A DNA stretch of 64,000 bases from Sphingobium fluviale (GTDB lineage: Bacteria; Pseudomonadota; Alphaproteobacteria; Sphingomonadales; Sphingomonadaceae). A program made the position numbers and the translations under genes. The stretch lies in contig NZ_SBKP01000005.1 in NCBI RefSeq assembly GCF_004122115.1, positions 1 to 64,000 on the forward strand. The letters run 5' to 3'. The notes beneath the pieces are model-generated. The model saw only the letters and a list, made by a program, of their open reading frames with translations, was not told the origin of the DNA and searched no databases. This document shows positions 1-22,146 of this stretch, in pieces; within the stretch, counting starts at the first letter, position 1, and every line of letters starts with the position of its first letter.

Positions 1-86
1 AAATGCCACCGCGTGAGTGGTCCATGGCCAAGGCTCAGTTCGCCGTGATCTTCGGCGAGCGCTTCATCAGAGCCATGGCGGCGTAA
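1..86 (+). CDS. IS256-family (mutator) transposase, C-terminal fragment
   Basis: Only the last 27 codons lie in the window and the gene continues to the left. The tail reads PPREWSMAKAQFAVIFGERF and then ends in a few residues; a W-x-MAKAQFA-x-x-FGERF ending is typical of IS256/mutator DDE transposases, which catalyse cut-out/copy-out transposition. The frame is open to the window edge and stops at 84-86. Whether the full gene upstream is intact cannot be seen. The call rests on recognising the conserved terminal motif only. Confidence 0.75.
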   Translation, partial: MPPREWSMAKAQFAVIFGERFIRAMAA

Positions 87-128
87 TGTTCAACCGCCCG
101 CCCACACACGGAAATCCTGACAGTCCCC
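1..128 (+). mobile_element. Right end of an IS256-family insertion sequence
   Basis: After the transposase stop at 86 there are about 40 nt ending in ACACGGAAATCCTGACAGTC and then CCC. Read inward from the right this gives GGGGACTGTCAGG, the kind of terminal inverted repeat found on IS256 elements. The right terminus is therefore placed at about 126-128. The matching left end and the 8-9 bp target duplication lie outside the window, so the exact boundary is approximate. Confidence 0.6.
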
Positions 129-146
129 CTGCAAGGCGACATTCGG

Positions 147-914
147 GTGAGCGCGACAGAAATAACAAGCGCGCCGACTAAGGATCAGGCTGCCGCGCCA
201 GTGACTGAGCATGTTACAGCTGCGTATACTCCGGCTGCATCTATACCTCTCACACTCCACCCAGATAAATATCAGCTCCGCGAGCTGTCGGCTCAAGAGT
301 TGACGGCTAACGCATCCGTCTGGATGGCGGCGGCGGCGGTGCTCACTTTAGTGATCACGTCCCTCGGCACCTTTTTTATCTGGGGACAAGTCCGACTTAC
401 CCGCAAAGCCGTGGAAGAGGCTGTCGCCGGAACCGAAGCCACTCGAGAAGCGAATGCTATCGCTCGCCAGACAGGAGAAGCTCAGGTCCGTTGCTACCTC
501 TCGCCAAAGGAGGTGCAATTCTGCATAGACAATCTCGCCATCCCGCATGTTCGTATGAACTTCCTCAATTCAGGGCAATCACCGGCACGCAATTTCCGCT
601 GGGTGTTCCAAGTTCGAGTGAAGGTGATGCCAGATGGCTGGGACTGGGAAAATCAGCCCAGAGAGCCGGGCGGTGGCCGTGACATTCCCGCCCAGCAGGA
701 GGAGACAGTTGAGTTGGCCATCGTCGACGAGAAGCCAATTTCGCAAGGCAATTTGTCTGACCTTCTGCTCGAGCCGGAGGCACGTATCACTGTAAGCATC
801 AAGGCCATTTGGGATGACGTATTCGGAACCGAATGGAGCGAGACATGGCTGTTTCAGGCAACTGCCGCGACTGGTGTTGACGTATACGTGGCGATGTTTC
901 CTGACTTTACCTAA
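147..914 (+). CDS. Uncharacterised single-pass membrane protein, possibly 5'-truncated
   Basis: I do not recognise a named family. The 255-aa product has a polar N-terminal segment, one hydrophobic helix at about residues 58-79, a short helical linker (80-112), and a soluble C-terminal domain of mixed sheet character beginning around the RCYLSPKEV stretch. The topology fits an inner-membrane anchor carrying a cytoplasmic or periplasmic domain. The GTG start at 147 is only about 20 nt after the IS256 end, no good ribosome binding site precedes it, and the frame stays open upstream into the element. The native start or promoter may therefore have been replaced by the insertion. Base composition is lower in GC than the core genome to the right. 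Confidence 0.6.
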   Translation: MSATEITSAPTKDQAAAPVTEHVTAAYTPAASIPLTLHPDKYQLRELSAQELTANASVWMAAAAVLTLVITSLGTFFIWGQVRLTRKAVEEAVAGTEATREANAIARQTGEAQVRCYLSPKEVQFCIDNLAIPHVRMNFLNSGQSPARNFRWVFQVRVKVMPDGWDWENQPREPGGGRDIPAQQEETVELAIVDEKPISQGNLSDLLLEPEARITVSIKAIWDDVFGTEWSETWLFQATAATGVDVYVAMFPDFT

Positions 915-1155: not shown

Positions 1156-1878
1156 ATGCGTCAGGCAAAGTATTTTGGTAAATTCGAAGAGTATTCAGAG
1201 GCGATTGGCTACGTCCGTGTTTCGACTTCAAAGCAAGGGCGCTCCGGGCTTGGGCTAGAAGCGCAGCGTGAAGCGATCAGTCAGTTTGCTGAACGTGAGT
1301 GCATAACGATAATCGAGTGCTTCGAGGAGGTGGAAACGGGAAAAGGCTGGGATGCCCTAGATCGGCGTCCCGTTCTTCGGGAAGCGTTGGCAAAGGCCAA
1401 GCAGCGACAATGCCCGATAATCGTTTCCAAGCTGGATCGCCTTTCGCGTGATGTGCATTTCATCTCCGGGCTGATGGCGCAAAGGGTGCCGTTCATGGTT
1501 GCCGAGCTGGGCGCAGACACAGACCCGTTCCTGCTGCATCTGTTTGCGGCGCTGGCCGAGAAGGAGAGGGCGCTGATATCGCAGCGAACCAAAGATGCCT
1601 TGGCGCGCAAGATCGCTGCTGGCGTCCCATTGGGCAACAGGACCAATCTTGCAGAGGCGCAGCGGCTGGGGGCGGCGGCGAACATCAGAGCAGCTCGTCA
1701 ATTCTCTGCAACAGTTGCACCCGTTATCGAGCAGCTCCGCAGGTCTGGAACCGGCACATTGTCCGGTATTGCATCAGGGCTTGAGCGATTGGGCATTCGG
1801 ACGGCTCGCGGGGGCACATGGACGCCAATGCAAGTAAAGCGTGTGATGGCCTATGCCGAGCAGAACGATCTCGCATGA
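1156..1878 (+). CDS. Small serine recombinase (resolvase/invertase family)
   Basis: The 240-aa product is a site-specific serine recombinase. The catalytic domain begins at [10 protein letters not shown], giving nucleophile Ser23 with Arg21. It continues with the SKLDRLSRD motif (Asp94, Arg95, Ser97, Arg98) and the long E-helix with [14 protein letters not shown]. The C-terminal 60 residues form a resolvase-type helix-turn-helix with a TPMQVKRV recognition segment. Such enzymes cut and rejoin DNA at short dyad sites, and this size fits an invertase or island resolvase rather than a large integrase. The stop overlaps the next start (ATGA), so the two genes are translationally coupled. Target sites are not visible with certainty. 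Confidence 0.9.
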
Positions 1879-2513
1879 GCTGTCGCCGCAATCGAGTTAC
1901 GCCAGACGGGGATATCATCGCCATACCTGCTCGCGGGCGGCTGATGGGCAATCGCGGTCGCCTGGTGGATCAGTGCGGCGAGATAGTGCGGCATTTCGAG
2001 CGGGAGCGTTGGATCAGTTGCGTATTGGATGAGGTGCATGGCGGGCCGGTCGCTATGGACAACCCCAACAGCTATACACCTCTGTTCTTTACCGACGATG
2101 CCGTTGCGCTGGCCGCAGGTCATCGCCCCTGTGGGCAGTGTCGTCAGGACGATTATGGGCGCTTCCTCGCCGCATGGAAACGGATGCAGGGCATCTCAGG
2201 CCACATCCGTGTCTATTCCGAGGAAATGGACGCCAATCTCCATGCGCGCCGGATGCGCTGGAGAAGTGGGCGCGATCAGCGCGCCATTCCGTTCGATCAG
2301 ATACCATCCGGTGCATTCTTCCGGTCAGATCGAATATCGCCGCATCCTCTGCTTTACTGGGCAGGGCGGTTGTGGCCGTGGGCAGAGGGCGCTTATCTTG
2401 CCCCGTTAGATGTGGCTGATAGCTATGGCCATGTCGGCGGGCCATGGCATTTCAGTTGGAAAATAATAGCGCATGGCGGAATGGATTGGCGGGCGTTCGG
2501 ACCACAATTATAG
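1875..2513 (+). CDS. Conserved protein with Ada-like Cys-pair (CGQC), coupled to the recombinase
   Basis: The start ATG overlaps the recombinase stop by 4 nt, giving a 212-aa protein. Key features are an N-terminal RNRVTPDG...RGRLMGNRG stretch, [20 protein letters not shown] and the CGQCR pair at about residues 89-92, followed by a DYGRF helix. From memory this matches a conserved, uncharacterised alphaproteobacterial family whose Cys pair in a GHRPC-x-x-CR setting resembles the metal-binding fold of Ada. Its role is unknown. The coupling suggests it works with, or travels with, the recombinase; DNA binding through a zinc site is an inference only. Confidence 0.7.
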
Positions 2514-2612
2514 TTATCAAACCTGAGCAATAAACATTCGATTGAGTTTGACGCCTTCTCGACTTTTATAGTTTTGCAATTTAATCCCGCATTCGACGGG
2601 GGATCAAAGCGT

Positions 2613-3332
2613 ATGGGTTTTCGATTTAGGAAATCGGTAAAAATCCTTCCCGGCTTCAGGATCAATCTCAGCAAATCTGGCGTAAGCACATCGCTTGGTC
2701 GTCCCGGCGCAACCGTTAATATCAGCAAGCGCGGAACGCGTTACACGACAGGTTTGCCGGGGACGGGACTTTCATATTCTGCGCTTGCTCCAAAACGAAG
2801 CGAGGGTGAAATCACATCGTCAGGTAGCTCTGGTAAGCCACAATCCGCCAAGACCGGTTGTGGCTGCGTCATTCTCCTACTGGTAGCTATCGTGACAATC
2901 GGTCAGTGCTCTTCCACGCCTGATAAGCATGATGCTGCGCTACCTTTTGCCTCTGGCGCTGCAATGAAATTCGGTAATGGCGACACCGTCTATGTCACAG
3001 CATCTCAGCTCAATGCGCGTGACGAACCGTCAGCTTCTGCAAAGATAGTAACCAGCTTGCCCTCAGGCGCATCTGTGCAGGTAATTGATCGGTCAGGGGA
3101 ATGGCTCAAGATCATGCAAGACGGTGCAATACTGTGGATAGCAGCACAGCATGTTTCTTCTGAAAAACCTTCGATCCGCGAAACGCTTTCAACGACGGCT
3201 CCGTTAGCGCTGCCGACCCGTAGTAACGATGATCGATCAACAAGCGGGCATTCTGGGTTTGGAAAGCAGTGCAAGAAAGGAAAGCCTTGCGGAAATGCTT
3301 GTATTTCTCGTAATCGGGTTTGTCATAAATGA
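2613..3332 (+). CDS. DUF4236 protein with transmembrane segment, SH3 domain and Cys-rich tail
   Basis: The start is set at 2613 because MGFRFRKS is the usual beginning of DUF4236. Domains in order over 239 residues are DUF4236 (1-55, with the NLSKSGVSTSLG and RGTRYTTGLPGTGLSYS signatures), one transmembrane helix (about 86-104), and a bacterial SH3-like domain (about 130-182, with LNARDEPSASAKIVTSLPSG). A polar linker follows, then a short Cys-rich tail of the CKKGKPCGNACISRNRVC type. The SH3 part would bind cell wall or peptides outside the membrane. A similar tail occurs on many bacterial envelope proteins, but its function is not known to me. It is the first gene of an apparent operon interrupted by IS66. 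Confidence 0.75.
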   Translation: MGFRFRKSVKILPGFRINLSKSGVSTSLGRPGATVNISKRGTRYTTGLPGTGLSYSALAPKRSEGEITSSGSSGKPQSAKTGCGCVILLLVAIVTIGQCSSTPDKHDAALPFASGAAMKFGNGDTVYVTASQLNARDEPSASAKIVTSLPSGASVQVIDRSGEWLKIMQDGAILWIAAQHVSSEKPSIRETLSTTAPLALPTRSNDDRSTSGHSGFGKQCKKGKPCGNACISRNRVCHK

Positions 3333-3427: not shown

Positions 3428-3452
3428 GTAAGCGTGGGCTGGAGGCCGCAGA

Positions 3453-5006
3453 TCAGGCGGCTGCGGCGATCGATTGCTGATCTGGCCGCCAGTTCCAGGG
3501 CAGAAGTTCATCCCAGCGGGCAACAGGCCAGTCGCCAGCGATCTTGGCGATGACGTCAGCGATATAGGCCTGTGGTTCGAGGCCATTGAGCTTTGCGGTT
3601 TCGATGACGGAATAGATGGCGGCGGCGCGATCGCCGCCGGCCTTTGACCCGGCGAACAGCCAGTTTTTACGGCCCAAGGCCACGCACCGCATGGCGCGCT
3701 CCGCGATGTTGTTGTCGATTTCCAGGCGGCCATCGTCGAGGAAGCGCGTGAGCGCGACCCAGCGCTTGCGGCCATAGGCGATCGCCTTGGCCATCTCGGA
3801 CTTGGGCGAGAGACGGCGCAGGGCATCGTCGAGTGCCTGGCGCAGCTTGTCGATCAATGGCTGGGTGCGGTCCTGCCGGCTTCTTCGTCGGATCTCGGGT
3901 TGCTGGCCTCGAACCTCTGCCTCGATCTCATAGAGCTGGCCGACGCGTTCCAGCAGATCAGTGGTAAGCGGCGTCGGCTTGGTGGCGTGGATGTCGAATA
4001 TCTTGCGCCGGAAATGCGCCCAGCAGGCGACCTCGGTGACGCGGTTGGTGTCGTAGAGCTTGTCGTATCCCGCATAGCCATCGGCCTGCAGATAGCCGCT
4101 GAAGCTGGCCAGCTGCCGCTGGGGATGGGCGCCGGTCCGATCGGTGGTGAACTCATACCAGACCAGCGAGGGAGTGGTGGCTCCGGAACCGCGATCATCG
4201 ACGGCGTAGGCCCAGAGCCTGCCAGTCGCCGTCTTGCCGCGTCCCGGATCAAGCATGGGAACCGGCGTATCGTCGGTATGGATCTTCGCGGCGGTCAGGC
4301 CGACCTCGCGGATGCGACTGATGATCGGGTCGAGCAGCACGGATGCTTGCCCGACCCATCCTGCGAGCGTCGAGCGGTCGATCTCGATGCCCTGCGCAGC
4401 CATGATCTCAGCCTGGCGGTACAGCGGTAGATGATGGTCGAACTTGGAGACGACAACGTGGGCCAGCGTGCCGAAGGTCGCCTTGCCCCGGGCAATGGCT
4501 TTTACCGGCGCGGGTGCCTGCACGATCTTCTCGCAGGACCGGCAGCTATACTTGGGCCGGATGGTCCGAACGACACGCCATTGCACCGGCACGGCATCCA
4601 GCATCTCGTCGCTATCCTGCCCCAGAGGCCGCAGCGCGCCACCGCAGCCCGGACAGGTGCAGTTGCCCTGCTCGGGCTCAATCCGCTGTTCCTCCCGCGG
4701 CAGATGGGCAGGCAGCGCACGAACGGGCGATGGCCGATCGATGGCTACCGGCTCGCCTCGGCGCGCGGCGGTGACGATGGCTTCGCCTTCCAGTTCCTCA
4801 AGCGCCAGCTCAAGCTGAGCGATCTGGGCGTCGAGCTTCTCGGACGACTTGCCAAACTGCATCCGCTTGAGGCGCGCGATCTGCACGCGCAGCGTGTCGA
4901 TCAGGATGTCACGAGCAGAAATATCGGCGTGGGCGGCCGCCAAAGCAGCTTCGAGCTCGGCGATCCGAGCGTCTTTGTCAGCTGTGGAAAGGCCTGCGTC
5001 CGACAC
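3453..5006 (-). CDS. tnpC: IS66-family transposase TnpC
   Basis: This is the DDE transposase of the IS66 element, about 517 aa. It has an N-terminal coiled-coil/leucine-rich region (ARIAELEAALAAAHAD), the IS66 zinc-binding domain (CTCPGCGG and YSCRSCEK), then the catalytic core with HTDDTPVPML, LQADGYAGYDKLY and the NNIAERAMR segment carrying the glutamate. An IS66 C-terminal domain (GLEPQAYIADVI) follows. The start is ambiguous: a TTG at 5036 would add 10 residues, while GTG at 5006 gives the more usual VSDAGL beginning. The length is normal for the family and the gene appears functional. Confidence 0.95.
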   Translation of the reverse strand: MSDAGLSTADKDARIAELEAALAAAHADISARDILIDTLRVQIARLKRMQFGKSSEKLDAQIAQLELALEELEGEAIVTAARRGEPVAIDRPSPVRALPAHLPREEQRIEPEQGNCTCPGCGGALRPLGQDSDEMLDAVPVQWRVVRTIRPKYSCRSCEKIVQAPAPVKAIARGKATFGTLAHVVVSKFDHHLPLYRQAEIMAAQGIEIDRSTLAGWVGQASVLLDPIISRIREVGLTAAKIHTDDTPVPMLDPGRGKTATGRLWAYAVDDRGSGATTPSLVWYEFTTDRTGAHPQRQLASFSGYLQADGYAGYDKLYDTNRVTEVACWAHFRRKIFDIHATKPTPLTTDLLERVGQLYEIEAEVRGQQPEIRRRSRQDRTQPLIDKLRQALDDALRRLSPKSEMAKAIAYGRKRWVALTRFLDDGRLEIDNNIAERAMRCVALGRKNWLFAGSKAGGDRAAAIYSVIETAKLNGLEPQAYIADVIAKIAGDWPVARWDELLPWNWRPDQQSIAAAA

Positions 5007-5066
5007 CGCGATCCTATAGCGGAACAGCGGCCGCAATGCCAGAAAAAGCGCCGGAAAATGGGCGTT

Positions 5067-5414
5067 TTATCCCGCGAGTGATGGGGTAAAAGTGCGCTCC
5101 GGCCGCCGCCAGTCGATGCCTTCCAATAGCATGGAAAGCTGGGCCGCGGTCATCACCACCGACCCGGCCTTGGTCGATGGCCACACGAACCGGCCCCGGT
5201 CCATCCGCTTGGAAAACAGGCACATGCCCTGGCCGTCATACCAAAGCAGCTTCACCAGATCGCCTCGCTTTCCGCGAAAGGCGAACAGCGCGCCGGAATG
5301 CGGGCTTTGCTCCAGAACCTGCTGCGTCATCACGGCAAGGCCGTCAAAACCCTTGCGCATGTCTGTCGCGCCGCAGGCCAGGAATATCCGCGTCGATGGC
5401 GGCAGCGGGATCAT
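5067..5414 (-). CDS. tnpB: IS66 accessory protein TnpB
   Basis: The 115-aa product matches the IS66 Orf2-like family: it opens with PPSTRIFLACGATDMRKGFDGLA and contains FRGKRGDLVKLLWYDGQG, both highly conserved. TnpB is required with TnpC for IS66 transposition, though its biochemical role is unclear. Its start overlaps the tnpA stop by 4 nt and it sits about 60 nt upstream of the preferred tnpC start, so the three genes are one transcript. Confidence 0.95.
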   Translation of the reverse strand: MIPLPPSTRIFLACGATDMRKGFDGLAVMTQQVLEQSPHSGALFAFRGKRGDLVKLLWYDGQGMCLFSKRMDRGRFVWPSTKAGSVVMTAAQLSMLLEGIDWRRPERTFTPSLAG

Positions 5415-5794
5415 CGCGTCAGGATGCCGATCACCCGCGACAGGGCATCAGCATCGACCGTGGTATCCACGCTTACCCTGATACCCGACGGCAACTCGAT
5501 CCCGATCACGCCGCCGCTGCGCGCCGCGACCGTTGGGGCGGGCAAGGCTAGCTGCTCGCTGATCTGCACCTCCGCAAAAACAGGCTCGATCGGCGTGCGC
5601 ACCCCGGTCAGTTCGCCGGACATCGCCTGTCGCCGCCATGTGTAGATCGAGCCGCTGCCGACATCATGGCGTTCACAGGCCGCGCGCACACAGCCCTCCG
5701 GGCCGAATGCATCCCGCAGCACGGCCAGCTTCTGCTCCACCGTCCAGCGCCGCCGGCCCGACACCCGGCTAATGACCTCTATCCGACTACTCAT
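5411..5794 (-). CDS. tnpA: IS66 accessory protein TnpA (helix-turn-helix)
   Basis: This is the small DNA-binding protein of the IS66 system, about 127 aa from the ATG at 5794. A GRRRWTVEQKLAVLRDAFGP stretch and CVRAACERHDVGSGSIYTWRR form the classic transposase HTH of the IS3/IS66 orfA type. The C-terminal part resembles the beta-rich end of IS66 TnpA (GIELPSGIRVSVD). A start at 5881 is also possible. The ATG at 5794 is preferred because the protein family begins near it, and it lies inside a strong hairpin, which may control translation. Confidence 0.88.
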   Translation of the reverse strand: MSSRIEVISRVSGRRRWTVEQKLAVLRDAFGPEGCVRAACERHDVGSGSIYTWRRQAMSGELTGVRTPIEPVFAEVQISEQLALPAPTVAARSGGVIGIELPSGIRVSVDTTVDADALSRVIGILTR

Positions 5795-5816
5795 ACGACC
5801 GCTCGTATGAGTAGTC
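5785..5816 (-). promoter_or_regulatory. Perfect hairpin over the tnpA start codon
   Basis: Arms 5785-5798 and 5803-5816 are perfect 14-bp inverted repeats (GACTACTCATACGA and its complement) around a 4-nt loop. The tnpA ATG (complement of 5792-5794) lies in one arm. In a transcript reading through the element the start codon would be buried in the stem. This suggests post-transcriptional restraint of transposition, or alternatively an operator for a dimeric repressor. Confidence 0.6.
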
Positions 5817-5931
5817 GCTGCACCGCTCGCTGAATCCTCAATCTCGTCCGACACCGGCCACCCCCGCTCAAAGAGGGGCAATCATCCCGGCAAATGGCCG
5901 GCCCGCAAGGCGGCCGTCAGAATTCGCTTAC

Positions 5932-5939
5932 GATACATA
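5932..5939. repeat. Target-site duplication, right copy (IS66)
   Basis: GATACATA follows the CGCTTAC terminus of the element and is identical to 3420-3427. Together the two copies define the insertion point exactly. Confidence 0.92.
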
Positions 5940-5959
5940 AGCATGCAGACAGCATACTG

Positions 5960-7267
5960 ATGGCATCACACCCACCTTCAGCACAGCCAAACATAAGATA
6001 TCGATCACACACTGGCTTAAAACCCTATGATATAAGTCGATCTGCTGAGTTTCTATTCCCTGCGGGGGAAGGACGTCACGACAGGGTTAAGCTGCGTGTC
6101 GCAGTGCGGATAGCGATCCCATCGAACATGAGTTCAAATGGGTATTGCCAGCTTATAAATAGTCAGGACGGCACAGGCCCAGACATAATCAGGGCACGGC
6201 AGCGCGATAGCCGCCAAATCAAGATCAGCACTATTAGCGAGCAATGGCTCTTCAATCTGCACGGGAAATTGTGGAGGCAAACTAACGCAACAATGTTAGA
6301 CGGCGCGCTTGATCTTGAAATCAATCCCACGCGGTTTCTAGCGTATCAGGATGCCCCTTACGCGGCAGAGCTGATGCAACTACCGACATTAGAAGTCATG
6401 CACCGTGCGGCAGATCGACGTATTCACCTCCAACACGCCACTCTGGATACTGAGGACAACATTCTGGTTGGCACTCTGCATCTCGGAGGCGAGCTGTTTT
6501 CCCAGCGTTCAGCGGATTGGCAAAGAAGCCTCATCGGTTATTTGAGCCATGTGCAGCAATGTTGCGTGAATGTGTTGGCACCGCCCGGTAGTGATGCAGA
6601 GATCATCGGGTTCGAGATCAGAAGCGTTAGACAGGTCGAGTGCTACTGGGAGCTTCGTGCAGAGCAAGCGCCCCTCATACTGCGGGATATGTCAATCGCC
6701 GTCCGGTCAAGTGATCCAGAAGCCGAGATACATTACCTTATTGGTGCTGCTGCCAATGCCAGTTGGCTTAAGATCGAACTGACCAAAAAAATTCATCTGG
6801 TGATCTATGCGAAGTGCATGGACCGGCTACGCTTCGAAGTTCGCTATATAGATGGCATTCAAGGCGAGCTTGAGGCATTCCATTGCAACGTAGCAAGCCC
6901 TATGCTTCAGCGATTGATGGACATTCGAATAGGTGCAGCCGCCCGTGTTCAACGTTTTTGGCGCGATTATGCGGAAAGATTGACACCTCAATTCGGGGCG
7001 CAGCAGATCATCGACTTCATTGCCAGCTTCAACGAAATTGCACCTGTTGCAGTGAGACACGAGTTGCTGACCTTGTTGGCCGCCAACCGCGCACTCATAG
7101 CTAATGACGAGGCAGGTATTGTCACAAATGAGCTATGCGAAGCACTGCGCCGAGCAGGAATATTGGAACGCTCCCGGCACCGGCAAAGAGGACGTATATA
7201 TCGCATGGCACGGAGATACCGTGCTGTCTTTCAGCAGATGTTTGGCGGGGATGATATTGTAACGTGA
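5960..7267 (+). CDS. Uncharacterised 435-aa cytoplasmic protein
   Basis: I do not recognise this protein. The start is ATG 5960, which overlaps the stop of the rejoined small ORF (TGATG). In this frame the pre-insertion sequence has a stop just upstream, so the IS66 insertion does not cut this coding region. There is no signal peptide or membrane segment. The first 300 residues look like mixed alpha/beta folds. The last 70 residues are helical and end in a basic stretch (RSRHRQRGRIYRMARRYR) that could be a winged-helix or nucleic-acid contact. The next gene follows closely (18-nt gap to the preferred start). Expression now depends on promoters in or after IS66. Confidence 0.65.
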   Translation: MASHPPSAQPNIRYRSHTGLKPYDISRSAEFLFPAGEGRHDRVKLRVAVRIAIPSNMSSNGYCQLINSQDGTGPDIIRARQRDSRQIKISTISEQWLFNLHGKLWRQTNATMLDGALDLEINPTRFLAYQDAPYAAELMQLPTLEVMHRAADRRIHLQHATLDTEDNILVGTLHLGGELFSQRSADWQRSLIGYLSHVQQCCVNVLAPPGSDAEIIGFEIRSVRQVECYWELRAEQAPLILRDMSIAVRSSDPEAEIHYLIGAAANASWLKIELTKKIHLVIYAKCMDRLRFEVRYIDGIQGELEAFHCNVASPMLQRLMDIRIGAAARVQRFWRDYAERLTPQFGAQQIIDFIASFNEIAPVAVRHELLTLLAANRALIANDEAGIVTNELCEALRRAGILERSRHRQRGRIYRMARRYRAVFQQMFGGDDIVT

Positions 7268-7284
7268 TAAGGAGAGGGGCGGGG

Positions 7285-8409
7285 ATGAAGCTCATAAGTG
7301 CAGACAGAAAGCGGCGGTTGGCCTCAAAGGCACGTAGGCTTGGCTGGGTGGCGATGGTTCCAATAGCTGGTGCGATTGGGTTACTAGCTGCACCCGCGCC
7401 ATCGAGCATGTATTTTCCCGAGCAGAGGACATGCCCCATCGGCGGCGAGAAGTTCGAGTTCATGGGATTAATGAGCATATCGACATGGGGTGCCTTGCCG
7501 GATGGCATGCCCATCGGTTCTGGCTATTTCCCTACAGACCTTCCGCAATGTCCGCGCAACGGCCTAGTCATGTATCGTGATTTCAATGCCGATGAGTTGA
7601 AGAAACTGAAAGTGGTCATTGAAAGTCGCGAATATCGCAAGTTGCGGGATAAGGGCAGTCCAAAACATTATCTCGCCTTCCAACTGGCGAAAGCGCTCGG
7701 AGACGAGGATGCGCCGTGGCTATTGCTGAGCGCGACGTGGCAGGCAAAGAATGAGAACCCGAAAGATGCCCGTGTGAATGCTTATAACGAGGAATTTGCG
7801 TCGCTCGTTCAAGCGCTTCCAATCAGTGCAACCTCTTTCAATTCCATCGCGCTGCGTGCTCGTGCTGCCAATGCGCTGCGTGAAATCGGACACTTTAGTG
7901 AGGCCGACAACCTCCGCAGATCAATTGTCATTGCTCCAGACGCGGGCAGTGGCGAGAGTGACGCCGATGAAAACCGAAAGGGGTGGGCTGAGTTTCTTGT
8001 GCTTCTGGCTGGGCCGATCGCACGGCAGGACAGGAGCCGCTCACCGATCGATATGATGAGTGAGCGATCGGCGGCATTCCGATGCCTATCAGAGGAGTTG
8101 GCGACCACGGGCATGCAGGGATCATCCGAACCCTTGTCACCATTCGAGAGAGATTATTGTGCCTCGCCAAAATTAACCGATGCCATTGCGGAGGTGCGGC
8201 GGAATATCCGCCAAAGTTCCGAGGATGTGAAGGAATATGACGGAGTGGTAGGTAACGCATACAACCCCGGCACCACGAACGACTTGGAGGCAGCTGAAAA
8301 GGCAATGAACGCAGCAATGAATGAAGCGCGGGCCGAGGAAGTGGCTAGGGTGGAAGCAGCTGCGCGTAATGTGATGGAGGCTGCGGACAGAGCCGCAAAA
8401 GCTCAATAG
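7285..8409 (+). CDS. Uncharacterised membrane-anchored protein with CPxGG...LPxCP N-domain
   Basis: The start ATG 7285 is preferred over the overlapping GTG at 7264 because an AAGGAG site lies about 10 nt upstream. The 374-aa product has a basic N-terminus, one transmembrane helix (about 20-37), then a domain with Cys50 (RTCPIGGEKF) and Cys89 (LPQCPRNGLVMYRDF). From memory this pairing recurs in an unnamed sphingomonad family. A helical region follows and the last 45 residues form an Ala/Glu-rich coiled coil. It is the last gene of the uncharacterised row and converges on the 420-aa gene. Function unknown. Confidence 0.65.
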   Translation: MKLISADRKRRLASKARRLGWVAMVPIAGAIGLLAAPAPSSMYFPEQRTCPIGGEKFEFMGLMSISTWGALPDGMPIGSGYFPTDLPQCPRNGLVMYRDFNADELKKLKVVIESREYRKLRDKGSPKHYLAFQLAKALGDEDAPWLLLSATWQAKNENPKDARVNAYNEEFASLVQALPISATSFNSIALRARAANALREIGHFSEADNLRRSIVIAPDAGSGESDADENRKGWAEFLVLLAGPIARQDRSRSPIDMMSERSAAFRCLSEELATTGMQGSSEPLSPFERDYCASPKLTDAIAEVRRNIRQSSEDVKEYDGVVGNAYNPGTTNDLEAAEKAMNAAMNEARAEEVARVEAAARNVMEAADRAAKAQ

Positions 8410-8555
8410 TGATCAACCACTGGTAAAGAGGCCGATGTCAGTTTTCTCTGCAACAGTTTCACAGGTCCGTATTGTTGACCTATCGCTCATGAGAATTTTA
8501 TTAAGGTATTGATTATAGGTGTTAAATTTTTATTGGGTCGTATCGAACACACTTT

Positions 8556-9818
8556 TTACACCCCCTTCAGCCAGTCGAAATGTGCACTGATTAAGTAGTT
8601 TGCTGTTTCGCATATACAATCTCGGTGAGGCAGTATGGCCACCTCTTCGGTTCTAACCACAGTCCCGTCCACATCTCGGCAGAATGGGCAATCAGGGTTC
8701 AATGTGCTGTATTTGAACCCGTCAAGATGATCGCTCAGGTTGGTTGAGAGTTTGCACAATGTAGCCTGTTTGAAGCGGTTTTCCGAGAACATTGCGCGCA
8801 GAAGCGTCTTTTCATGCGCAACGAGAGGGCACTCACGACCTACCTCTGTTAACTCGTCAAGGGCCTTACGAGAGAGGAAGCCGTTTGCGCGAACGCCCAA
8901 AGCTTTCTTCTCCTCTTTGGATAGCTGCACACCATTTTTGCGGTAGGCAGTAGTAATAGCGCGGGGGTGGTCTGTCATCCCGCCTTCCATGAGTGATATT
9001 ATGGTAGGGATGGCATCCGGCGTCAGGTAATTAAGGCGCATCACCGCTTCATGAGCCGCTTCATACCTGATGTTTTCCGCTGTTAGCAGAGGCTTTGTAT
9101 CTGAAAATTTGCCACTGTGCTCCAATTGAATGTTGGTCTCACCGGCTTGGTGTCGCTTTAGAGCCTGTTTTTTCAGCTTCAGCGCTGCCTCATTGATTTC
9201 CGTGACTTGGGTAGATGTGAGTGTCGCATCATTCCCGCATACAACGCAAAGACGGGTTTGATCGAGTGCGTCGAAGGGGACATCAAGCTGCGCCCCACAA
9301 TCACAAGCGATGCTGATATTTTCAAAAGTGACCTTCGGTTTCTCAGTTTGAACTGATGATACCAATACAGCCTCGGCGACTGGTTCCTGAATGTTAGCTG
9401 GCTCCAAGCGCTCTAATAATTTGAGGACGGCTTTTCCAATTTTTCTTCCTTCATTGCGTCCGCGATGGTCATGGTAAAGGCGGCCAATTTGAAGTTCCGT
9501 TTCGCTATTAACGCCAACATGCACGGCATCAATTTTTGCCCGCCGAAATGTCGTGACAGCTTCGTTTAGGGCGTCTTGTGCGGTGCCCGTGACAATATGC
9601 TCAGCATGAATGTTGCCGCTCTGACGGAAGAGAGTGACCCTGTAGATGCCAAAGGGTGCTAGTTTCAACATATGTCGCAACTGATCGAGATATACTGTTC
9701 GGTCGTCATTTGGATCATTCAACCGCCTATGGCTTTCCTCCATCGCCCACCAACTGACTAACAGGAGCGCAAGGATTGCAGGGCCGAAGATGATCCATTC
9801 AACCGTCTTGGCGTCCAT
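8556..9818 (-). CDS. Uncharacterised membrane protein with two Cys-based metal sites
   Basis: A strong GGAGGGT site precedes the ATG. The 420-aa protein has one N-terminal transmembrane helix (about 8-25). A first putative zinc ribbon is formed by Cys172, Cys174, Cys191 and Cys194 (ACDCGA and CVVCG), followed by a helical, lysine-rich middle. The C-terminus has Cys377-x2-Cys380, Asp384-Gly385, His398-x2-Cys401-x-Cys403. That last arrangement resembles the CxxC...DG...HxxCxC signature of Mu gpF/SPP1 gp7 head-morphogenesis proteins. The likeness is a motif resemblance only. The protein is probably cytoplasm-facing and membrane-tethered; its role is unknown. Confidence 0.65.
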   Translation of the reverse strand: MDAKTVEWIIFGPAILALLLVSWWAMEESHRRLNDPNDDRTVYLDQLRHMLKLAPFGIYRVTLFRQSGNIHAEHIVTGTAQDALNEAVTTFRRAKIDAVHVGVNSETELQIGRLYHDHRGRNEGRKIGKAVLKLLERLEPANIQEPVAEAVLVSSVQTEKPKVTFENISIACDCGAQLDVPFDALDQTRLCVVCGNDATLTSTQVTEINEAALKLKKQALKRHQAGETNIQLEHSGKFSDTKPLLTAENIRYEAAHEAVMRLNYLTPDAIPTIISLMEGGMTDHPRAITTAYRKNGVQLSKEEKKALGVRANGFLSRKALDELTEVGRECPLVAHEKTLLRAMFSENRFKQATLCKLSTNLSDHLDGFKYSTLNPDCPFCRDVDGTVVRTEEVAILPHRDCICETANYLISAHFDWLKGV

Positions 9819-10387
9819 TCGTCACCCTCCTGCGCCGATATATATGTGGTAGCGGATCATAAGCGACAGCATTGTGAGATTGCTAGCCTTAGTGTGCCGC
9901 ACCATTGTGCGCTGCCACTGATATTATGAAAGTCGAAGCTGACATAACAGGTTGCCAGAGATACGGTTGTATGATACAAAAATCATGAAAACAGCTTTGT
10001 ATCGATCCATTTAAATATCTGAAAATAAAACATAATGGAAGAATGGCGTATAGTCCCACCCTCTCCGCCATCATTTGTCTGCGCGATGCCGCTCGCCAAC
10101 CCATCGATCGAATGTACAGGATGGTAGGCATCGGCAGGGCACCCTCACACCGTGGCGCCCGATGCGGCAGTGTGGCTGGACAGCAAAAATCACCCTGCTC
10201 GTCTAACGGGTATAATCGCCCAAATTTATTTTCATTCGCGCTCCGTTCTCTTGCCTTTTGCGCAAGCCAGCTTTTCCCGCGCGTCGCTGCATTGCACATA
10301 TGCCTTTTGTCGATGAACCGAATCCCGGCAGCGACGAACCGAGTCCCTGAATTGTCATTTACCCTCTTGCATCGTTCAGCCGCTGTG
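9819..10387. other. Island/core junction intergenic region
   Basis: No gene is supported. The left part (to about 10,050) is AT-rich, with several palindromic scraps. A tRNA-Ser 3'-end copy lies at 10053-10070. The right part, up to the NrdR boxes, is the long upstream region of nrdA. Open frames on either strand here show no protein-like character. Confidence 0.5.
10053..10070 (+). repeat. tRNA-Ser 3'-end fragment, putative att site of a genomic island
   Basis: The 18 nt GTCCCACCCTCTCCGCCA can be read as T-stem 3' strand (CCCAC), acceptor 3' strand (CCTCTCC), discriminator G and CCA, exactly as in alphaproteobacterial tRNA-Ser genes. No other part of a tRNA precedes it. Such 3'-end copies are what tRNA-targeting integrases leave at the far border of an island. 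The intact tRNA and the integrase would be left of the window. Confidence 0.65.
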
Positions 10388-10435
10388 GCACTATCCCTAG
10401 TGTAGGGACACTGGGGGTCACGCAACAGATTGTGG
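10388..10435 (+). promoter_or_regulatory. Tandem NrdR boxes upstream of nrdA
   Basis: Two 16-bp sites, GCACTATCCCTAGTGT (10388-10403) and ACGCAACAGATTGTGG (10420-10435), each match about 12 of 16 positions of the NrdR consensus acaCwAtATaTwGtgt. They start 32 bp apart, three helical turns, which is the spacing NrdR needs. They suggest repression of the reductase genes by the nucleotide-sensing NrdR. Confidence 0.72.
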
Positions 10436-10604
10436 TTTGAAAACGCCGGAGATTTCGGCGAATGGCTCTTTTTGCGCCGTTTTTCGAGCCATTAGCTGCG
10501 TGAAAACCCATGCCCAGAATGTCAAAAGAGTGTAGGGTGAATTCTTTAACCCGGCACCCTTGACCGAATCGAACAGACAGTGAACACTTGAGGGGCGGCA
10601 ATAG

Positions 10605-12551
10605 ATGGATTTCAGAGATGGCGAGCAAGTGAGCGCAGGCGATATGGCAGTGATGGAAATGGAGCGGCCCGAAGCGGCCAAGGCAGAACCCAAGGCGACC
10701 GAGGCCACCAATGCCCCGGCCAAGGAGGCGGTGCCCGACTCGAAGAGCGTCGCGGTGCGTCGGTTCGATGTCGTGACCGATCCTTCGCGCGATGCGCTGC
10801 TCACCGATTTCGGCAAGGAGACGCTGAAGGACCGCTATCTCCTCCCCGGAGAGAGCTATCAGGATCTGTTCGCCCGCGTCGCCTCCGCCTATGCCGACGA
10901 CGCAGATCACGCCCAGCGCATCTATGACTATATCAGCCGCCTGTGGTTCATGCCCGCAACGCCCGTCCTCTCCAACGGCGGCACCGGGCGCGGCCTGCCG
11001 ATCTCGTGCTATCTCAACAGCGTGGACGACAGCCTGGAGGGCATCGTCAACACCTGGAACGAGAATGTGTGGCTCGCCTCGCGCGGCGGCGGCATCGGCA
11101 CCTATTGGGGCAATGTGCGCGGCATCGGCGAGCCGGTGGGCTTGAATGGCAAGACGAGCGGTATCATCCCGTTCGTGCGGGTGATGGACAGCCTCACGCT
11201 CGCGATTTCCCAAGGCTCGCTGCGCCGTGGCTCGGCCGCCTGCTATATCGACATCTCCCACCCGGAGATCGAGGAGTTCCTCGAAATCCGCAAGCCGTCG
11301 GGCGATTTCAACCGCAAGGCGCTCAATCTCCACCATGGCGTGCTCATCACCGATGCCTTCATGGAGGCGGTGCGCGATGGCGCGGAGTTTGCGCTCACTT
11401 CGCCCAAGGATGGCTCTGTGCGCGCCACGGTCGATGCGCGCGCGCTGTTCCAGAAGCTGGTCGAGACGCGTCTCGCCACCGGCGAACCCTATATCGTCTT
11501 CTCCGATCAGGTGAACCGGATGATGCCAAAGCATCACCGTGACCTTGGCCTCAAGGTCTCCACCTCCAACCTCTGCTCGGAAATTACCCTGCCCACGGGT
11601 CGCGATCATCTGGGCAATGACCGCACGGCGGTGTGTTGCCTCTCCTCGCTCAACCTCGAAACATGGGATGAGTGGAAGGACGACAAGCAGTTCGTGGAAG
11701 ACGTGATGCGCTTCCTCGACAATGTGTTGCAGGACTATATCGACCGCGCACCGGATGAGATGGCCCGCGCCAAATATAGCGCGGAGCGCGAGCGCTCGGT
11801 CGGCCTTGGCGTCATGGGCTTTCACAGCTTCCTGCAGGCGCGGCTCATCCCGTTTGAAAGCGCGATGGCGAAAAGCTGGAACCTCAAGATATTCAAGCAC
11901 ATTTCAGCCAAGGTCAACGAAGCCTCGATGATGCTGGCGCAGGAGCGCGGCCCGTGCCCCGATGCTGCCGACATGGGCGTGATGGAGCGGTTTAGCTGCA
12001 AGATGGCGATCGCGCCGACCGCGTCTATCAGCATCATCTGCGGCGGCACATCCGCCTGCATCGAGCCGATCCCGGCGAATATCTATACGCACAAGACGCT
12101 GTCGGGCAGCTTCTCGATCAAGAACCCCTATCTCGAAAAGCTGCTGGTCGAGAAGGCGAAGGACAGCACCAACGTCTGGAACTCGATTCTGGAGCGCGGC
12201 GGCTCGGTCCAGCATCTCGATTTCCTGAGCCAGGAGGAAAAGGACGCGTTCAAGACCAGCTTCGAGATCGACCAGCGCTGGCTGCTCGAACTCGCGGCGG
12301 ACCGCACGCCCTATATCGATCAGGCGCAGTCGCTGAACCTGTTCATCCCGGCCGATGTCGAGAAATGGGATCTGCTGATGCTCCACTTCCGCGCGTGGGA
12401 GCTGGGCATCAAGTCGCTCTATTATCTCCGCTCCAAATCGGTCCAGCGCGCGGGCTTCGCCGGCGGCGTCGAGGCGGACAATACGGCGGAAGCGCCCAAA
12501 TTCGAAATCGGCGAGAGCACCGACTATGACGAATGTCTGGCGTGTCAGTGA
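10605..12551 (+). CDS. nrdA: Ribonucleoside-diphosphate reductase, alpha subunit
   Basis: This is the catalytic subunit of class I ribonucleotide reductase, which reduces NDPs to dNDPs with NrdB as radical source. Visible in the 648 residues are Cys135 (PISCYLNSVDD), the Asn322/Cys324/Glu326 active-site triad (SNLCSEITLP), the partner cysteine in CCLSSLN (Cys345) and the C-terminal redox pair Cys644/Cys647 (CLACQ). The first 50 residues are Ala/Glu/Pro-rich and there is no ATP-cone, so overall activity control by ATP/dATP is likely absent. GAGGGG precedes the ATG. Two NrdR boxes lie upstream, and nrdB follows about 1 kb downstream after two small genes. Confidence 0.96.
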   Translation: MDFRDGEQVSAGDMAVMEMERPEAAKAEPKATEATNAPAKEAVPDSKSVAVRRFDVVTDPSRDALLTDFGKETLKDRYLLPGESYQDLFARVASAYADDADHAQRIYDYISRLWFMPATPVLSNGGTGRGLPISCYLNSVDDSLEGIVNTWNENVWLASRGGGIGTYWGNVRGIGEPVGLNGKTSGIIPFVRVMDSLTLAISQGSLRRGSAACYIDISHPEIEEFLEIRKPSGDFNRKALNLHHGVLITDAFMEAVRDGAEFALTSPKDGSVRATVDARALFQKLVETRLATGEPYIVFSDQVNRMMPKHHRDLGLKVSTSNLCSEITLPTGRDHLGNDRTAVCCLSSLNLETWDEWKDDKQFVEDVMRFLDNVLQDYIDRAPDEMARAKYSAERERSVGLGVMGFHSFLQARLIPFESAMAKSWNLKIFKHISAKVNEASMMLAQERGPCPDAADMGVMERFSCKMAIAPTASISIICGGTSACIEPIPANIYTHKTLSGSFSIKNPYLEKLLVEKAKDSTNVWNSILERGGSVQHLDFLSQEEKDAFKTSFEIDQRWLLELAADRTPYIDQAQSLNLFIPADVEKWDLLMLHFRAWELGIKSLYYLRSKSVQRAGFAGGVEADNTAEAPKFEIGESTDYDECLACQ

Positions 12552-12585
12552 TCGTCGGCCAGTGATACCCGGACAGGCCTAGCCA

Positions 12586-13026
12586 ATGACCCACCGCCGC
12601 ATCGTCACCGGGCTTGATGCCGCCGGGCGCTCCGCCATCCTGATCGATGGCGCGGCGGAGATGGTGGCGTGGGCAACCGCGGAAACTCCGGTCGACAATA
12701 GCGGCAGCGCGGATCAGGGCGGCGGCTTCTCCTTCGCCATGCCGCGCGGGGGCAGCAAGTTCCTGATGCTGGAGATTCCGTCTACCCCGCCCGGTGAGAT
12801 GTTCGGCCCCGGCATGCACGCCACGGACACGATCGACTATCTGGTGGTGGTAAAGGGCGAGATCGTCCTTATCACCGAAAGCGGAGAGACGGTGTGCCGC
12901 GTGGGCGACATGATCGTTGATCGCGGCGTGATGCACGGCTGGCGCAACGATGGCGCGGAAGGCGCGCTGCTTGCCTGCGTGATGATCGATGCCGCGCCGG
13001 TGGGCAACGGAGCCACGCTCAAATGA
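12586..13026 (+). CDS. Cupin-domain protein
   Basis: The 146-aa protein has a cupin barrel: MHATDTIDYLVVVKGEIVLI is the first cupin motif and GDMIVDRGVMHGWRNDG the second. Candidate metal ligands are His and Glu in the first motif and His in the second. Related proteins are annotated as small-molecule binding or dioxygenase-like cupins, but the substrate here cannot be told. It lies 34 nt after nrdA in the same direction and may be cotranscribed, without an evident functional link. Confidence 0.85.
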   Translation: MTHRRIVTGLDAAGRSAILIDGAAEMVAWATAETPVDNSGSADQGGGFSFAMPRGGSKFLMLEIPSTPPGEMFGPGMHATDTIDYLVVVKGEIVLITESGETVCRVGDMIVDRGVMHGWRNDGAEGALLACVMIDAAPVGNGATLK

Positions 13027-13053
13027 GCCGCAAGTCCGCCCCCCGCCATGCAA

Positions 13054-13083
13054 TGACCCCGGCATCTCGCGATACCGGGGTCA
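13054..13083. terminator. Hairpin between convergent genes
   Basis: TGACCCCGG at 13054-13062 pairs perfectly with CCGGGGTCA at 13075-13083, and the inner ATC/GAT can extend the stem. It lies 28 nt after the cupin gene. A second hairpin (TTGCCC...GGGCAA) follows at about 13087-13110. There is no T-run, so this is either a weak bidirectional terminator or an intergenic repeat. Confidence 0.45.
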
Positions 13084-13124
13084 AAGTTGCCCGGCCGGTC
13101 GGCTGGGCAAGGGGGGCTCGTGCG

Positions 13125-13343
13125 TTAGCGGGCCATGCTCGCGTTCATGCCCTCTTTGAGGTAGACGCGATTGTCGTCGATCCGGTCGACCGCATCGAGC
13201 GGCACCGTGTGGTGGCGCCCATCGGCAGAGTCAGAGCGGGTGAGGATGATCGTCTCGTCCTCGATCTTGTCGACCGTGCCGATGTGCTGGCCCATGGAAT
13301 TGCTGACTTCCATATGCTCCTTGATGCGCCATTTCTCGAACAT
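13125..13343 (-). CDS. DUF2171 family protein
   Basis: The start ATG at 13343 is preferred because an AGGAG site lies just upstream and MFEKWRIKEHMEV is the natural beginning. The 72-aa product matches DUF2171: VSNSMGQHIGTVDKIEDETIILTRSDSADGRHHTVPLDAVDRI, here split by memory into a PRC-barrel-like beta fold. These small proteins are common in sphingomonads and of unknown function. The gene is convergent with the cupin gene and divergent from nrdB. Confidence 0.82.
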   Translation of the reverse strand: MFEKWRIKEHMEVSNSMGQHIGTVDKIEDETIILTRSDSADGRHHTVPLDAVDRIDDNRVYLKEGMNASMAR

Positions 13344-13537
13344 GCTATATCTCCTGTCTGGGTGGTCCGTGCCAGAAGAACCCGCCAGCAACCCGCCCGT
13401 TCCGCGCCTCATCGCGCCTTTGCCACACAGACGCGCCGAGCCGTTGCCTGCGCGCCGCCCTCTGCGCCCCGGCCCGGCTAACGCGCCGCCCGCCTGACCC
13501 CATTCACACCCTTTTCAAAAAATTCCGGAGTAAGCCC

Positions 13538-14590
13538 ATGTCCCTTCTTAAAGCCTCCAAAGTCTACAAGCCCTTCGAATATCCCTGGGCTTATGAATAT
13601 TGGAAACGCCAGCAGCAGGTCCACTGGATGCCGGAGGAAGTGCCGCTGGGCGAGGATTGCCGCGACTGGGCGCAGAAACTTTCGGAGCATGAGCGCAACC
13701 TGCTGACCCAGATCTTCCGCTTTTTCACCCAGGCGGATGTTGAGGTGCAGGATTGCTATCACGACAAATATGGCCGCGTGTTCAAGCCGACCGAAGTGAA
13801 GATGATGCTGACGGCGTTCAGCAACATGGAGACGATCCACATCGCCGCCTATTCGCACCTGCTCGACACCATCGGCATGCCGGAGAGCGAATATTCCATG
13901 TTCCTCGAATATGAGGAAATGCGCGCCAAGCATGATTATATGCAGCAGTTCGGCGTCGATAATGACGAAGACATCGCCCGCACCCTCGCGATGTTCGGCG
14001 GCTTTACCGAGGGGATGCAGCTCTTCGCCTCCTTCGCGATGCTGATGAACTTCCCGCGCTTCAACAAGATGAAGGGCATGGGCCAGATCGTCACATGGTC
14101 CGTGCGGGATGAGAGCCTGCACTGCGAGGGCATCGTGCGCCTGTTCCACGAATTCGTGAAAGAGCGCGGCTGCCTGACGAAGGCGGTGAAGGAAGACATT
14201 ATCGACTGCTGCCAGAAGACGGTGCGGCTGGAGGATGCCTTCATCGATCTGGCGTTCGAGATGGGGCCGGTGCCGGGCATGACGGCGAAGGAAATCAAGC
14301 GCTATATCCGCTATATCGCGGACTGGCGGCTGGGGCAGCTGGGCTTCCAGCCGATCTACATGATCGAGGATCACCCGCTGCCATGGCTCGCGCCGCTGCT
14401 CAATGGCGTGGAGCACGCCAACTTCTTTGAGACCCGCGCCACCGAATATTCCAAGGGCGCGACCCGCGGCAACTGGAACGAAGTGTGGGACAGCTTTGAC
14501 CGGCGCAAGCGCAAGGTGGCGAACGAAGACAGCAGCGCGGGGGATGAGGGCGAGGATATGTTCACGCGGGCCGGGGTTGCTGCGGAGTAG
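13538..14590 (+). CDS. nrdB: Ribonucleoside-diphosphate reductase, beta subunit
   Basis: The 350-aa ferritin-like subunit makes the di-iron tyrosyl radical for NrdA. The spacing E-T-I-H-x3-Y gives Glu98, His101 and radical Tyr105, as in class Ia/b enzymes. The other ligands are Asp67 (TQADVEVQD), Glu158 (GFTEGMQLF), Glu192 and His195 (RDESLHCEG). The acidic tail (SAGDEGEDMF) is the typical C-terminus that docks on NrdA. GGAG lies upstream of the ATG. It is separated from nrdA by the cupin and DUF2171 genes; no separate NrdR box was seen. Confidence 0.96.
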   Translation: MSLLKASKVYKPFEYPWAYEYWKRQQQVHWMPEEVPLGEDCRDWAQKLSEHERNLLTQIFRFFTQADVEVQDCYHDKYGRVFKPTEVKMMLTAFSNMETIHIAAYSHLLDTIGMPESEYSMFLEYEEMRAKHDYMQQFGVDNDEDIARTLAMFGGFTEGMQLFASFAMLMNFPRFNKMKGMGQIVTWSVRDESLHCEGIVRLFHEFVKERGCLTKAVKEDIIDCCQKTVRLEDAFIDLAFEMGPVPGMTAKEIKRYIRYIADWRLGQLGFQPIYMIEDHPLPWLAPLLNGVEHANFFETRATEYSKGATRGNWNEVWDSFDRRKRKVANEDSSAGDEGEDMFTRAGVAAE

Positions 14591-14769
14591 GGGGATGCCA
14601 TTGATGCCTGGGTCAGAAGCGAGCAGCGGCGAAGCGGCGCATGAGAAAGCGGCTTTTTGCCACCACAAGCGCACAACCCGCGTCAGACGAAACCCTATGA
14701 TATGGACTTTGGGCGGATAAGGCGACATAGGGCACAGCATATCGAACCCTAGCCCACGGACCCATTCTC

Positions 14770-16284: not shown

Positions 16285-16358
16285 ACGGGGCGAGGGTGCA
16301 TGAGTGCGCGCAACAAAGCGCGGACATGGGCGTTAGCTTCAGTAAAGGAGCACGCCAT

Positions 16359-16604
16359 ATGGCATTTACGCAATTAGACCCGCCTATTCCGCTCGAAGTG
16401 ATCGACAAGGGCAAGGGCTTCGCAATTGGCATGATCGATTACGGACCGGAGCATAACCTGATCTGGGTGACGGCGATTGATGACACAGGCGAAATCTGGT
16501 GCGCGCCCAACCCCAAGGTGCGGATGCAACAGAACTGGACGCTGGGCCGCCCGCGCCCCGGCTGTGACAAAGACCATGGCAATGAGCTGCACAAGGCGAT
16601 TTGA
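16359..16604 (+). CDS. Small conserved hypothetical protein
   Basis: An AAAGGAG site at 16344-16350 fixes the ATG at 16359 and gives 81 aa. The product is acidic/neutral without signal peptide or membrane segment. It contains IDYGPEHNLIWVTAIDDTGEIWCAPNP, split between beta strands, and ends GCDKDHGNELHKAI. Proteins of this kind are found next to metabolic genes in sphingomonads, but I know of no function. Confidence 0.7.
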   Translation: MAFTQLDPPIPLEVIDKGKGFAIGMIDYGPEHNLIWVTAIDDTGEIWCAPNPKVRMQQNWTLGRPRPGCDKDHGNELHKAI

Positions 16605-16650
16605 TTAGGGCGTGCGCTCAATGGGGATTTCCCGCATAATGGAGGAGAGC

Positions 16651-17121
16651 ATGACCGAAGAACCGAACGAATTGGCCGTCGAAATTTTCATCAATGCCCC
16701 GCCGCAAAAAGTGTGGGACATCATGACGGCCCGTCAGGAGGAATGGTGGTGCCCGAAGCCATGGCGCACAGAGATCATCGAGCAGGATTGGCGCGCGGGT
16801 GGACGCTCCGCCATGGTGATGCGCGGGCCGAATGAGGGCGAGGAGCATATGCTGGAGGGCATATTTCTGGAGGTGACGCCCGGCGTGCGCTTCGTCACCA
16901 CCGACGCGGTGAAGACCGGCGGGGTGGCGGGGGCATGGGCGCCGCAGGAGGCGTTCATGATCGGCATCTGGGAAGTGGCGCCGGAAGGCGAAGGCACGCG
17001 CTATCGGGCATCCGCCCGCCACTGGACCGCCGAGGCAAGGCAGCAGCACGCAGACATGGGCTTCACCGATGGTTGGCAGGCCTGTGCGCAACAGCTCAAG
17101 GATCTGGCCGAGGGCGCATAG
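16651..17121 (+). CDS. SRPBCC/AHSA1-domain protein
   Basis: A GGAGGAGAG site places the start at 16651 (156 aa). The product opens with a beta strand ELAVEIFINAPPQKVWD, the hallmark of AHSA1/START-like folds. WWCPKPWRTEI, GEEHMLEGIFLEVTPGVRFVTT and a C-terminal helix starting ADMGFTDGWQACAQQL follow. Such proteins form a ligand-binding cavity. The natural ligand is unknown. It lies 46 nt after the small gene upstream and may be in the same operon. Confidence 0.85.
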   Translation: MTEEPNELAVEIFINAPPQKVWDIMTARQEEWWCPKPWRTEIIEQDWRAGGRSAMVMRGPNEGEEHMLEGIFLEVTPGVRFVTTDAVKTGGVAGAWAPQEAFMIGIWEVAPEGEGTRYRASARHWTAEARQQHADMGFTDGWQACAQQLKDLAEGA

Positions 17122-18211: not shown

Positions 18212-18242
18212 TAAGAAGTGGGCCTTTATCGACATACCAAAG

Positions 18243-20201: not shown

Positions 20202-20292
20202 GCAAAATTCTCCCCCGTTGCCCCCAGTGATACTACATTAGAATAGGAGAATTTCTACTGTTACCGACTACATTATTGCCGAAGGGCGTCGC

Positions 20293-22101: not shown

Positions 22102-22146
22102 CTGCTCTCCGTTTATTGTTCCACTTCCGTGGACAGGCGGTGCCAG

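Follow-up and report, generated by a model that had tools for sequence, protein, structure and literature searches.

Evidence for a genomic island in tRNA-Ser(CGA) of Sphingobium fluviale and a displaced 3' end of the gene at its far border

Introduction

Genomic islands of the Islander type consist of an intact tDNA and a 3' fragment of it in the same orientation, with an integrase gene between the two and a length of 2-200 kb, and their core lies in the T-stem to acceptor region, according to the part of the description used here (PMC4383910). The locus in S. fluviale lies in a window of 64,000 nucleotides, the whole stretch of DNA that was analysed, whose position 1 is the first base of contig C44. 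Compared with that part of the Islander description (PMC4383910), it has an intact tRNA-Ser(CGA) gene at one end and an 18-nt 3' fragment downstream on the + strand, which would be on the same molecule once two contigs are joined. It likewise contains a tyrosine integrase gene inside (C48:135000-136667), the fragment is placed outside any conserved coding domain, and the length is within 2-200 kb. It differs from the islands described there in that the assembly is split by an insertion sequence (IS), with the two ends on different contigs.

Islands of the P4 type at tRNA-Ser(CGA), for example in the relative G107, have the same target and, as here, an integrase gene directly after the tRNA. 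However, the integrase of G107 differs from that of S. fluviale and contains the Pfam domains Arm-DNA-bind_3 and Phage_int_M, which mark the P4 type, and neither C48 nor C44 has a DNA match to the initial 9.8 kb that follow the tRNA in G107. The island at tRNA-Ser(CGA) in G019 (locus L133) encodes an integrase that is 29% identical to the one studied here, a resolvase (41%) and a homologue of PDC-S40 (42%), in the same order as in S. fluviale. For the remaining 12 of the 15 island proteins that were compared, the 19.9 kb examined contain no match (E 1e-4). Under the search words used, no literature was found on DUF6538 together with an integrase, and a search for tRNA-Ser islands with an integrase in 'Sphingo' returned only Staphylococcus or Listeria.

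Results

The fragment and the intact tRNA gene

The earlier note had read the 18 letters at 10053-10070 as the 3' end of a tRNA-Ser gene that lacks the rest of the tRNA. The letters are present exactly as first noted, no tRNA is found in the window by ARAGORN, and a search of window positions 1-16500 against Rfam gives no match up to E 0.5. The 18-mer has a single match in the window with up to three mismatches, where 0.04 are expected in shuffles. There is no second exact copy in the genome (48 contigs, 3.07 Mb), and with up to three mismatches it occurs at 10 places. The closest of these besides the window, with one mismatch (17/18), is C48:134943-134960, where an intact tRNA-Ser(CGA) gene has its 3' end, and in this respect the earlier reading was borne out. 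The mismatch is the first base of the 18-mer. The exact string common to the fragment and the gene is also 18 nt long, TCCCACCCTCTCCGCCAT, so while the letters are where they had been placed, the core shared with the tRNA lies one base to the right, at 10054-10071. This is the longest string in common around both ends, and the homology to the intact gene ends at the T-stem. With at most one mismatch, the 3' end of tRNA-Ser(CGA) occurs in the genome only at the tRNA and at the fragment. Two listed ORFs overlap the fragment, and as neither has a Pfam match up to E 0.1, it is not placed inside a conserved coding domain.

The intact gene is located at C48:134871-134960 (Rfam, ARAGORN), 8.1 kb from the end of the contig and in the same orientation as the fragment. 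The first gene downstream starts 39 bp after the tRNA and encodes an integrase of 555 amino acids, which confirms the earlier expectation that an intact tRNA-Ser and a tyrosine integrase would be found beyond the left edge of the window in this orientation. The integrase is of the DUF6538 type, with DUF6538, integrase N-terminal and SAM-like domains in Pfam, and it matches phrog_1 (integrase) in PHROGs over residues 16-511 (1.8e-29), with no match in PDB up to E 0.01. The residues R370, K413, H485, R488 and Y520, which are the catalytic residues of tyrosine recombinases, are invariant in all seven aligned integrases (own and six relatives).

Joining of the two contigs

C48 ends in one end of an IS, and C44 begins with an inverted copy of the same end (34-nt inverted match). 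This end matches plasmid elements that are annotated as IS256 family. A total of ten IS256-family ends were found in the genome, all of them situated some 125 bases from the end of a contig, on C21, C23 (both ends), C28 (both ends), C33, C44, C45, C46 and C48. Among the 45 possible pairings, exactly five share at least 5 bp, all of them 8-9 bp, and each end is used once. The pair C48/C44 is one of the five, with 9 bp in common. These 8-9 bp duplications suggest five contig joins, and the proposed join of C48 to C44 is based on the target duplication and not on a read.

Table 1. Coordinates of features at the island and its flanks (window positions unless C48 is given)
Feature	Position	Strand	Basis or remark
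IS256-family left end	C48:142960-143086		end of contig C48
IS256-family right end (transposase frame end and terminal inverted repeat)	1..127	+	inverted match to C48
9-bp target duplication of the IS256 insertion	128..136	.	same 9 bp before the IS on C48
Island ORF	147..914	+	no Pfam, NCBIfam, PADLOC or PHROGs match at E 0.001
Serine recombinase (resolvase/invertase type)	1156..1878	+	Pfam Resolvase 7.5e-25; phrog_125 DNA invertase 8e-29
Homologue of phage-defence candidate PDC-S40	1818..2513	+	PADLOC 4.2e-58
DUF4236 and SH3-domain protein	2613..3332	+	Pfam, scanned as 2574-3332
IS66-family insertion sequence, 2504 bp	3428..5931	-	Pfam IS66 domains; ends
Island ORF	5963..7267	+	no PADLOC, NCBIfam or PHROGs match at E 0.001; none in Pfam, scanned as 5894-7267
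Island ORF	7264..8409	+	no Pfam, NCBIfam, PADLOC or PHROGs match at E 0.001
Island ORF, N-terminal part like phrog_13701 (8e-14)	8556..9818	-	no Pfam, PADLOC or NCBIfam match at E 0.001
Putative attR core, 18-nt copy of tRNA-Ser(CGA) 3' end (T-stem 3' strand, acceptor strand, discriminator G, CCA, next T)	10054..10071	+	sequence comparison with C48
Displaced trailer of tRNA-Ser(CGA)	10074..10106	+	repeat copy as after other tRNA genes of the genome
Host DNA: nrdA upstream region conserved with relatives from 10217; nrdA 10605-12551	10217..12551	+	

Size, composition and gene content

The visible island comprises 17,924 bp, of which 7,998 bp are on C48 and 9,926 bp in the window, plus the unseen body of the IS256 element. 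The earlier note had the island cover the first 10 kb of the window, which is about the part that lies there, whereas the whole block of foreign DNA would measure 18 to 20 kb. The IS excluded, its GC content is 53.0% over 15,420 bp (53.7% on C48 and 52.4% in the window, IS66 left out), compared to 61.7% in the host DNA on the left and 63.5% on the right. In the island, 21 of 29 1-kb windows are below 0.55 GC, versus 3 of 105 in the host DNA of the 64-kb window. The lower-GC stretch begins at the tRNA copy and stops at the fragment: downstream of the tRNA on C48, the GC content drops from 0.62 to about 0.50, rises up to 0.60 roughly 2-4 kb further on and then falls again, while it is 0.63 to the right of the fragment (10605-64000). 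The statement that the DNA to the left of the fragment is of lower GC content holds on average but not throughout, as the 1-kb windows outside IS66 range from 0.49 to 0.60 and IS66 itself is at 0.65. In agreement with the earlier note, this DNA contains insertion sequences (IS66 and the IS256-family end), the serine recombinase gene and ORFs without database matches.

The genes on C48 are, in order, the integrase gene, a small ORF, genes for a NucS-like and a PDZ protein, an ORF without assignment, genes for a PLD-like and a DUF6998 protein, and an ORF running into the IS256 element. The NucS-like protein matches PDC-S11 in PADLOC (2.2e-11) and NucS at 4.5e-05, which is below the curated cut-off. 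The PLD-like protein is recognised by Pfam (5.3e-07) and matches DrmC at 4.9e-07 at best, and it resembles phrog_28026 over nearly its full length (4.3e-169; L041 15339-16766). The DUF6998 protein matches mREase_II (6e-42) and Pfam (1.4e-10). Judging from the profile names, the cargo may have a role in phage defence.

In the window, the genes for the serine recombinase and the PDC-S40 homologue overlap (1156-2513), and the same pair is present in the island of G019. In Sinorhizobium sp. M103, a PDC-S40 homologue is located about 6 kb from a related integrase. The IS66 element is flanked on both sides by an 8-bp target duplication, GATACATA. The longer listed frame of the ORF that follows it (from 5894) starts inside IS66, and no plasmid match was found for this ORF.

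With respect to other mobile elements, no relaxase or conjugation domain as in an integrative and conjugative element was identified by Pfam among the 18 ORFs of the visible island. Neither were any phage structural genes as in a prophage found by Pfam among the 18 ORFs or by PHROGs among the nine searched, whose matches there were to integrases, an invertase, a transposase and uncharacterised families only.

The trailer and the nrdA flank

The core together with the next 35 bp (10054-10106) is 91% identical to the end and trailer of tRNA-Ser(GCT) on C22. Positions 10074-10106 also match the sequences that trail tRNA-Arg(CCT) and a tRNA-like 3' end on C47, and a further copy, with three mismatches to the search pattern, follows tRNA-Phe(GAA). 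Because it resembles the trailers of other tRNA genes in the genome, the sequence to the right of the fragment is considered to be a tRNA trailer, as would be expected if it had once followed the tRNA gene. The intact tRNA-Ser(CGA) gene has no trailer behind it, but instead the integrase gene.

Host DNA starting with nrdA lies to the right, as the earlier note had it. In G107, G097 and G099, fumA precedes nrdA divergently, whereas in S. fluviale fumA comes after the nrdA-nrdB block and points the same way, and positions 14769-33244 run opposite to G107. Compared to G107, the nrdA-nrdB block (10217-14590) is thus reversed relative to fumA and the next 18 kb or so (14769-33244). Probably, a separate rearrangement placed nrdA adjacent to the trailer, beyond 10106-10216.

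The site in relatives

In 29 relatives, the DNA up to 1.5 kb from nrdA contains no tRNA, and there is no tRNA beside nrdA at 8 further right-flank loci (seven from other genomes, and one from G017, which is also among the 29 relatives), which are those scanned out of 29 non-own right-flank loci. No empty site was identified by nrdA among 60 relatives plus the own genome (36 in the genus), by hspQ beside the tRNA among 60 relatives plus own, or by the right flank among 94 genomes of the genus, own included. The prediction that in relatives the tRNA would run straight into the sequence after 10070 was not borne out in those examined, where nrdA is found elsewhere and the tRNA site is occupied in some, while in the own genome the neighbourhood has been rearranged.

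The gene hspQ adjoins tRNA-Ser(CGA) in all 30 loci scanned (29 relatives and own). The tRNA was located in 46 relatives, 43 of which have at least 1.1 kb of downstream sequence. Two home-made profiles, applied to the first 4-6 kb where available, identified a related integrase at the tRNA in 3 of the 43, a P4-type integrase in 13 and neither in 27, although the last group is not proven empty, as several loci have only 1.2-2.4 kb of downstream sequence. The 13 P4-type matches, one of them a fragment, are not all independent, since L110, L126 and L130 score alike and have the same sequence after the tRNA. G107 is among the 13. It also provides the best right-flank match apart from the own genome, and out of 12 genomes it matches the hspQ-tRNA stretch best. 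The tRNA-Ser(CGA) gene is a frequent island target, and its 3' end varies among the relatives (TCCCACC, TCCCTCC, TCCCTGC; L105-L139, L199-L210).

When 15 island proteins were compared with 35 loci that follow the tRNA and 20 that precede nrdA, the only matches apart from L133 were weak integrase matches in L115 and L125 and a resolvase of 25% identity in L121; 23 matching residues in L125 correspond to IS sequence in the own genome. Relatives of the integrase were identified in 12 other genomes of the genus (E 1e-30). Since these are only 28-40% identical, the element itself has not been seen elsewhere. The list is incomplete, as G019 is absent from it although its integrase matches at 5.7e-50 in a local comparison. 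Elsewhere in the genus, relatives of the integrase are located after a tRNA gene in 8 of 13 loci (ARAGORN). An integrase pattern scan of genome_contigs gave 21 stretches that fit the pattern, none of which is a relative.

A repeat after tRNA genes

The trailer at 10074-10106 belongs to a repeat of the form GCGCGATG-loop-CATCGCGC, with palindromic ends (GCGCGATG/CATCGCGC), that is placed directly after the CCA of tRNA genes. Other copies are found at L195 (2601-2633), L196 (2730-2762 and 10285-10317), L219 and L255-L260. Several of them end in a second tRNA-like 3' end with CCA, and there is more than one repeat in a row at L255 and L256. In the 94 genomes of the genus, the repeat was matched 9 times, in 4 genomes, and the own genome accounts for 5 of these matches. 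Each of the four own copies outside the window directly follows a CCA end, three times that of an intact tRNA and once that of a tRNA-like sequence that neither ARAGORN nor Rfam (gathering scores) names. Both copies in G010 follow a tRNA, while the matches in G094 and G032 have three mismatches each and no tRNA nearby.

A degenerate 29-mer scan of genome_contigs (84,980 species) identified seven stretches, from Pelagibius, Hyphomicrobium, Siccirubricoccus (two), Sphingomonadales, Marinicaulis and Rhodospirillales. The four genera whose taxonomy was looked up belong to four different orders of Alphaproteobacteria. In four of the seven, ARAGORN finds a tRNA-Leu immediately ahead of the repeat or row of repeats, in two a CCA-ended tRNA-like string takes this place, and in one there is nothing. 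No Rfam family was found at the repeat up to E 0.1 in the four of the seven loci searched, the folding of four trailers as RNA is not convincing (z -0.04, -0.44, -0.54 and -2.20), and a literature search on the trailer repeat found nothing under the search words used. That the repeat is a small element spreading by targeting tRNA 3' ends, or a functional trailer RNA, is a speculative and rather unlikely interpretation.

Discussion

These results suggest, with a probability of roughly 0.93, that a genomic island has integrated in the tRNA-Ser(CGA) gene at its 3' end and that the 18 nt are the attR core of this island. The earlier proposal of a far att site of such an island is largely right and is supported by the tRNA and the integrase on C48 and by the 9-bp join. 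It is a tRNA-targeted island of the textbook kind, and as such of an already known type, and insertion of this sort is a familiar route of gene acquisition in bacteria. In the proposed scenario, the tyrosine integrase (555 aa) would have carried out recombination between an 18-nt core on the circular island and the tRNA gene, whose end is identical to it. A new 3' end would have been supplied by the island, so that the tRNA stayed intact, and the old 3' end and trailer would have been pushed to the far side, where they would now form 10054-10106. Later, an IS256-family element and IS66 may have inserted into the island, and the IS256 copy presumably broke the assembly into C48 and C44. The sequence shows both ends and their orientation, the integrase with its conserved residues, the target duplication by which the contigs are joined, the GC contrast and the trailer. 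The recombination itself and this order of events are reconstructed from the arrangement of the sequences, and the island may still be mobile.

Alternatively, the fragment could be a relic of a duplicated tRNA-Ser(CGA) gene with its trailer that decayed from the 5' side, next to 10 kb of unrelated accessory DNA. The fragment and trailer together do resemble a genuine tRNA transcript end, and at other loci (L258, L260) the repeat is preceded by a tRNA-like 3' end but by no recognised tRNA. However, a relic would not account for the end of the homology at the T-stem, as for an integrase core, with 18 nt as the longest common string, nor for an intact gene that is followed by an integrase gene rather than a trailer, nor for a lower-GC stretch that extends from one copy to the other. 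This makes a relic very improbable. A match of 18 letters by chance is less probable still: it draws on the shortness of the string alone, whereas even with three mismatches only 0.04 are expected in the window, the match ends at CCA and a T and then continues into the trailer repeat, and a paired end is present on C48.

A different concern is that the contigs are wrongly joined, such that the island on C48 ends elsewhere and the fragment borders a different one, located in a second copy of the tRNA site. Both contigs do end in a repeated IS, and the join is derived from the target duplication. Yet the ten IS ends pair uniquely into five, the 3' end of the tRNA occurs with at most one mismatch only at the gene and at the fragment, and the GC contents of the two parts are alike, for which reasons a wrong join is considered highly unlikely.

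Beyond the proposed island in tRNA-Ser(CGA), the analysis indicates that pairing of IS target duplications can rejoin contigs, by which exact ends were obtained for an island split over two of them. The repeat after tRNA genes in several orders of Alphaproteobacteria is less ordinary than the island itself. For the genus, tRNA-Ser(CGA) emerges as a site of repeated insertion, with candidate defence genes as cargo in the present case.
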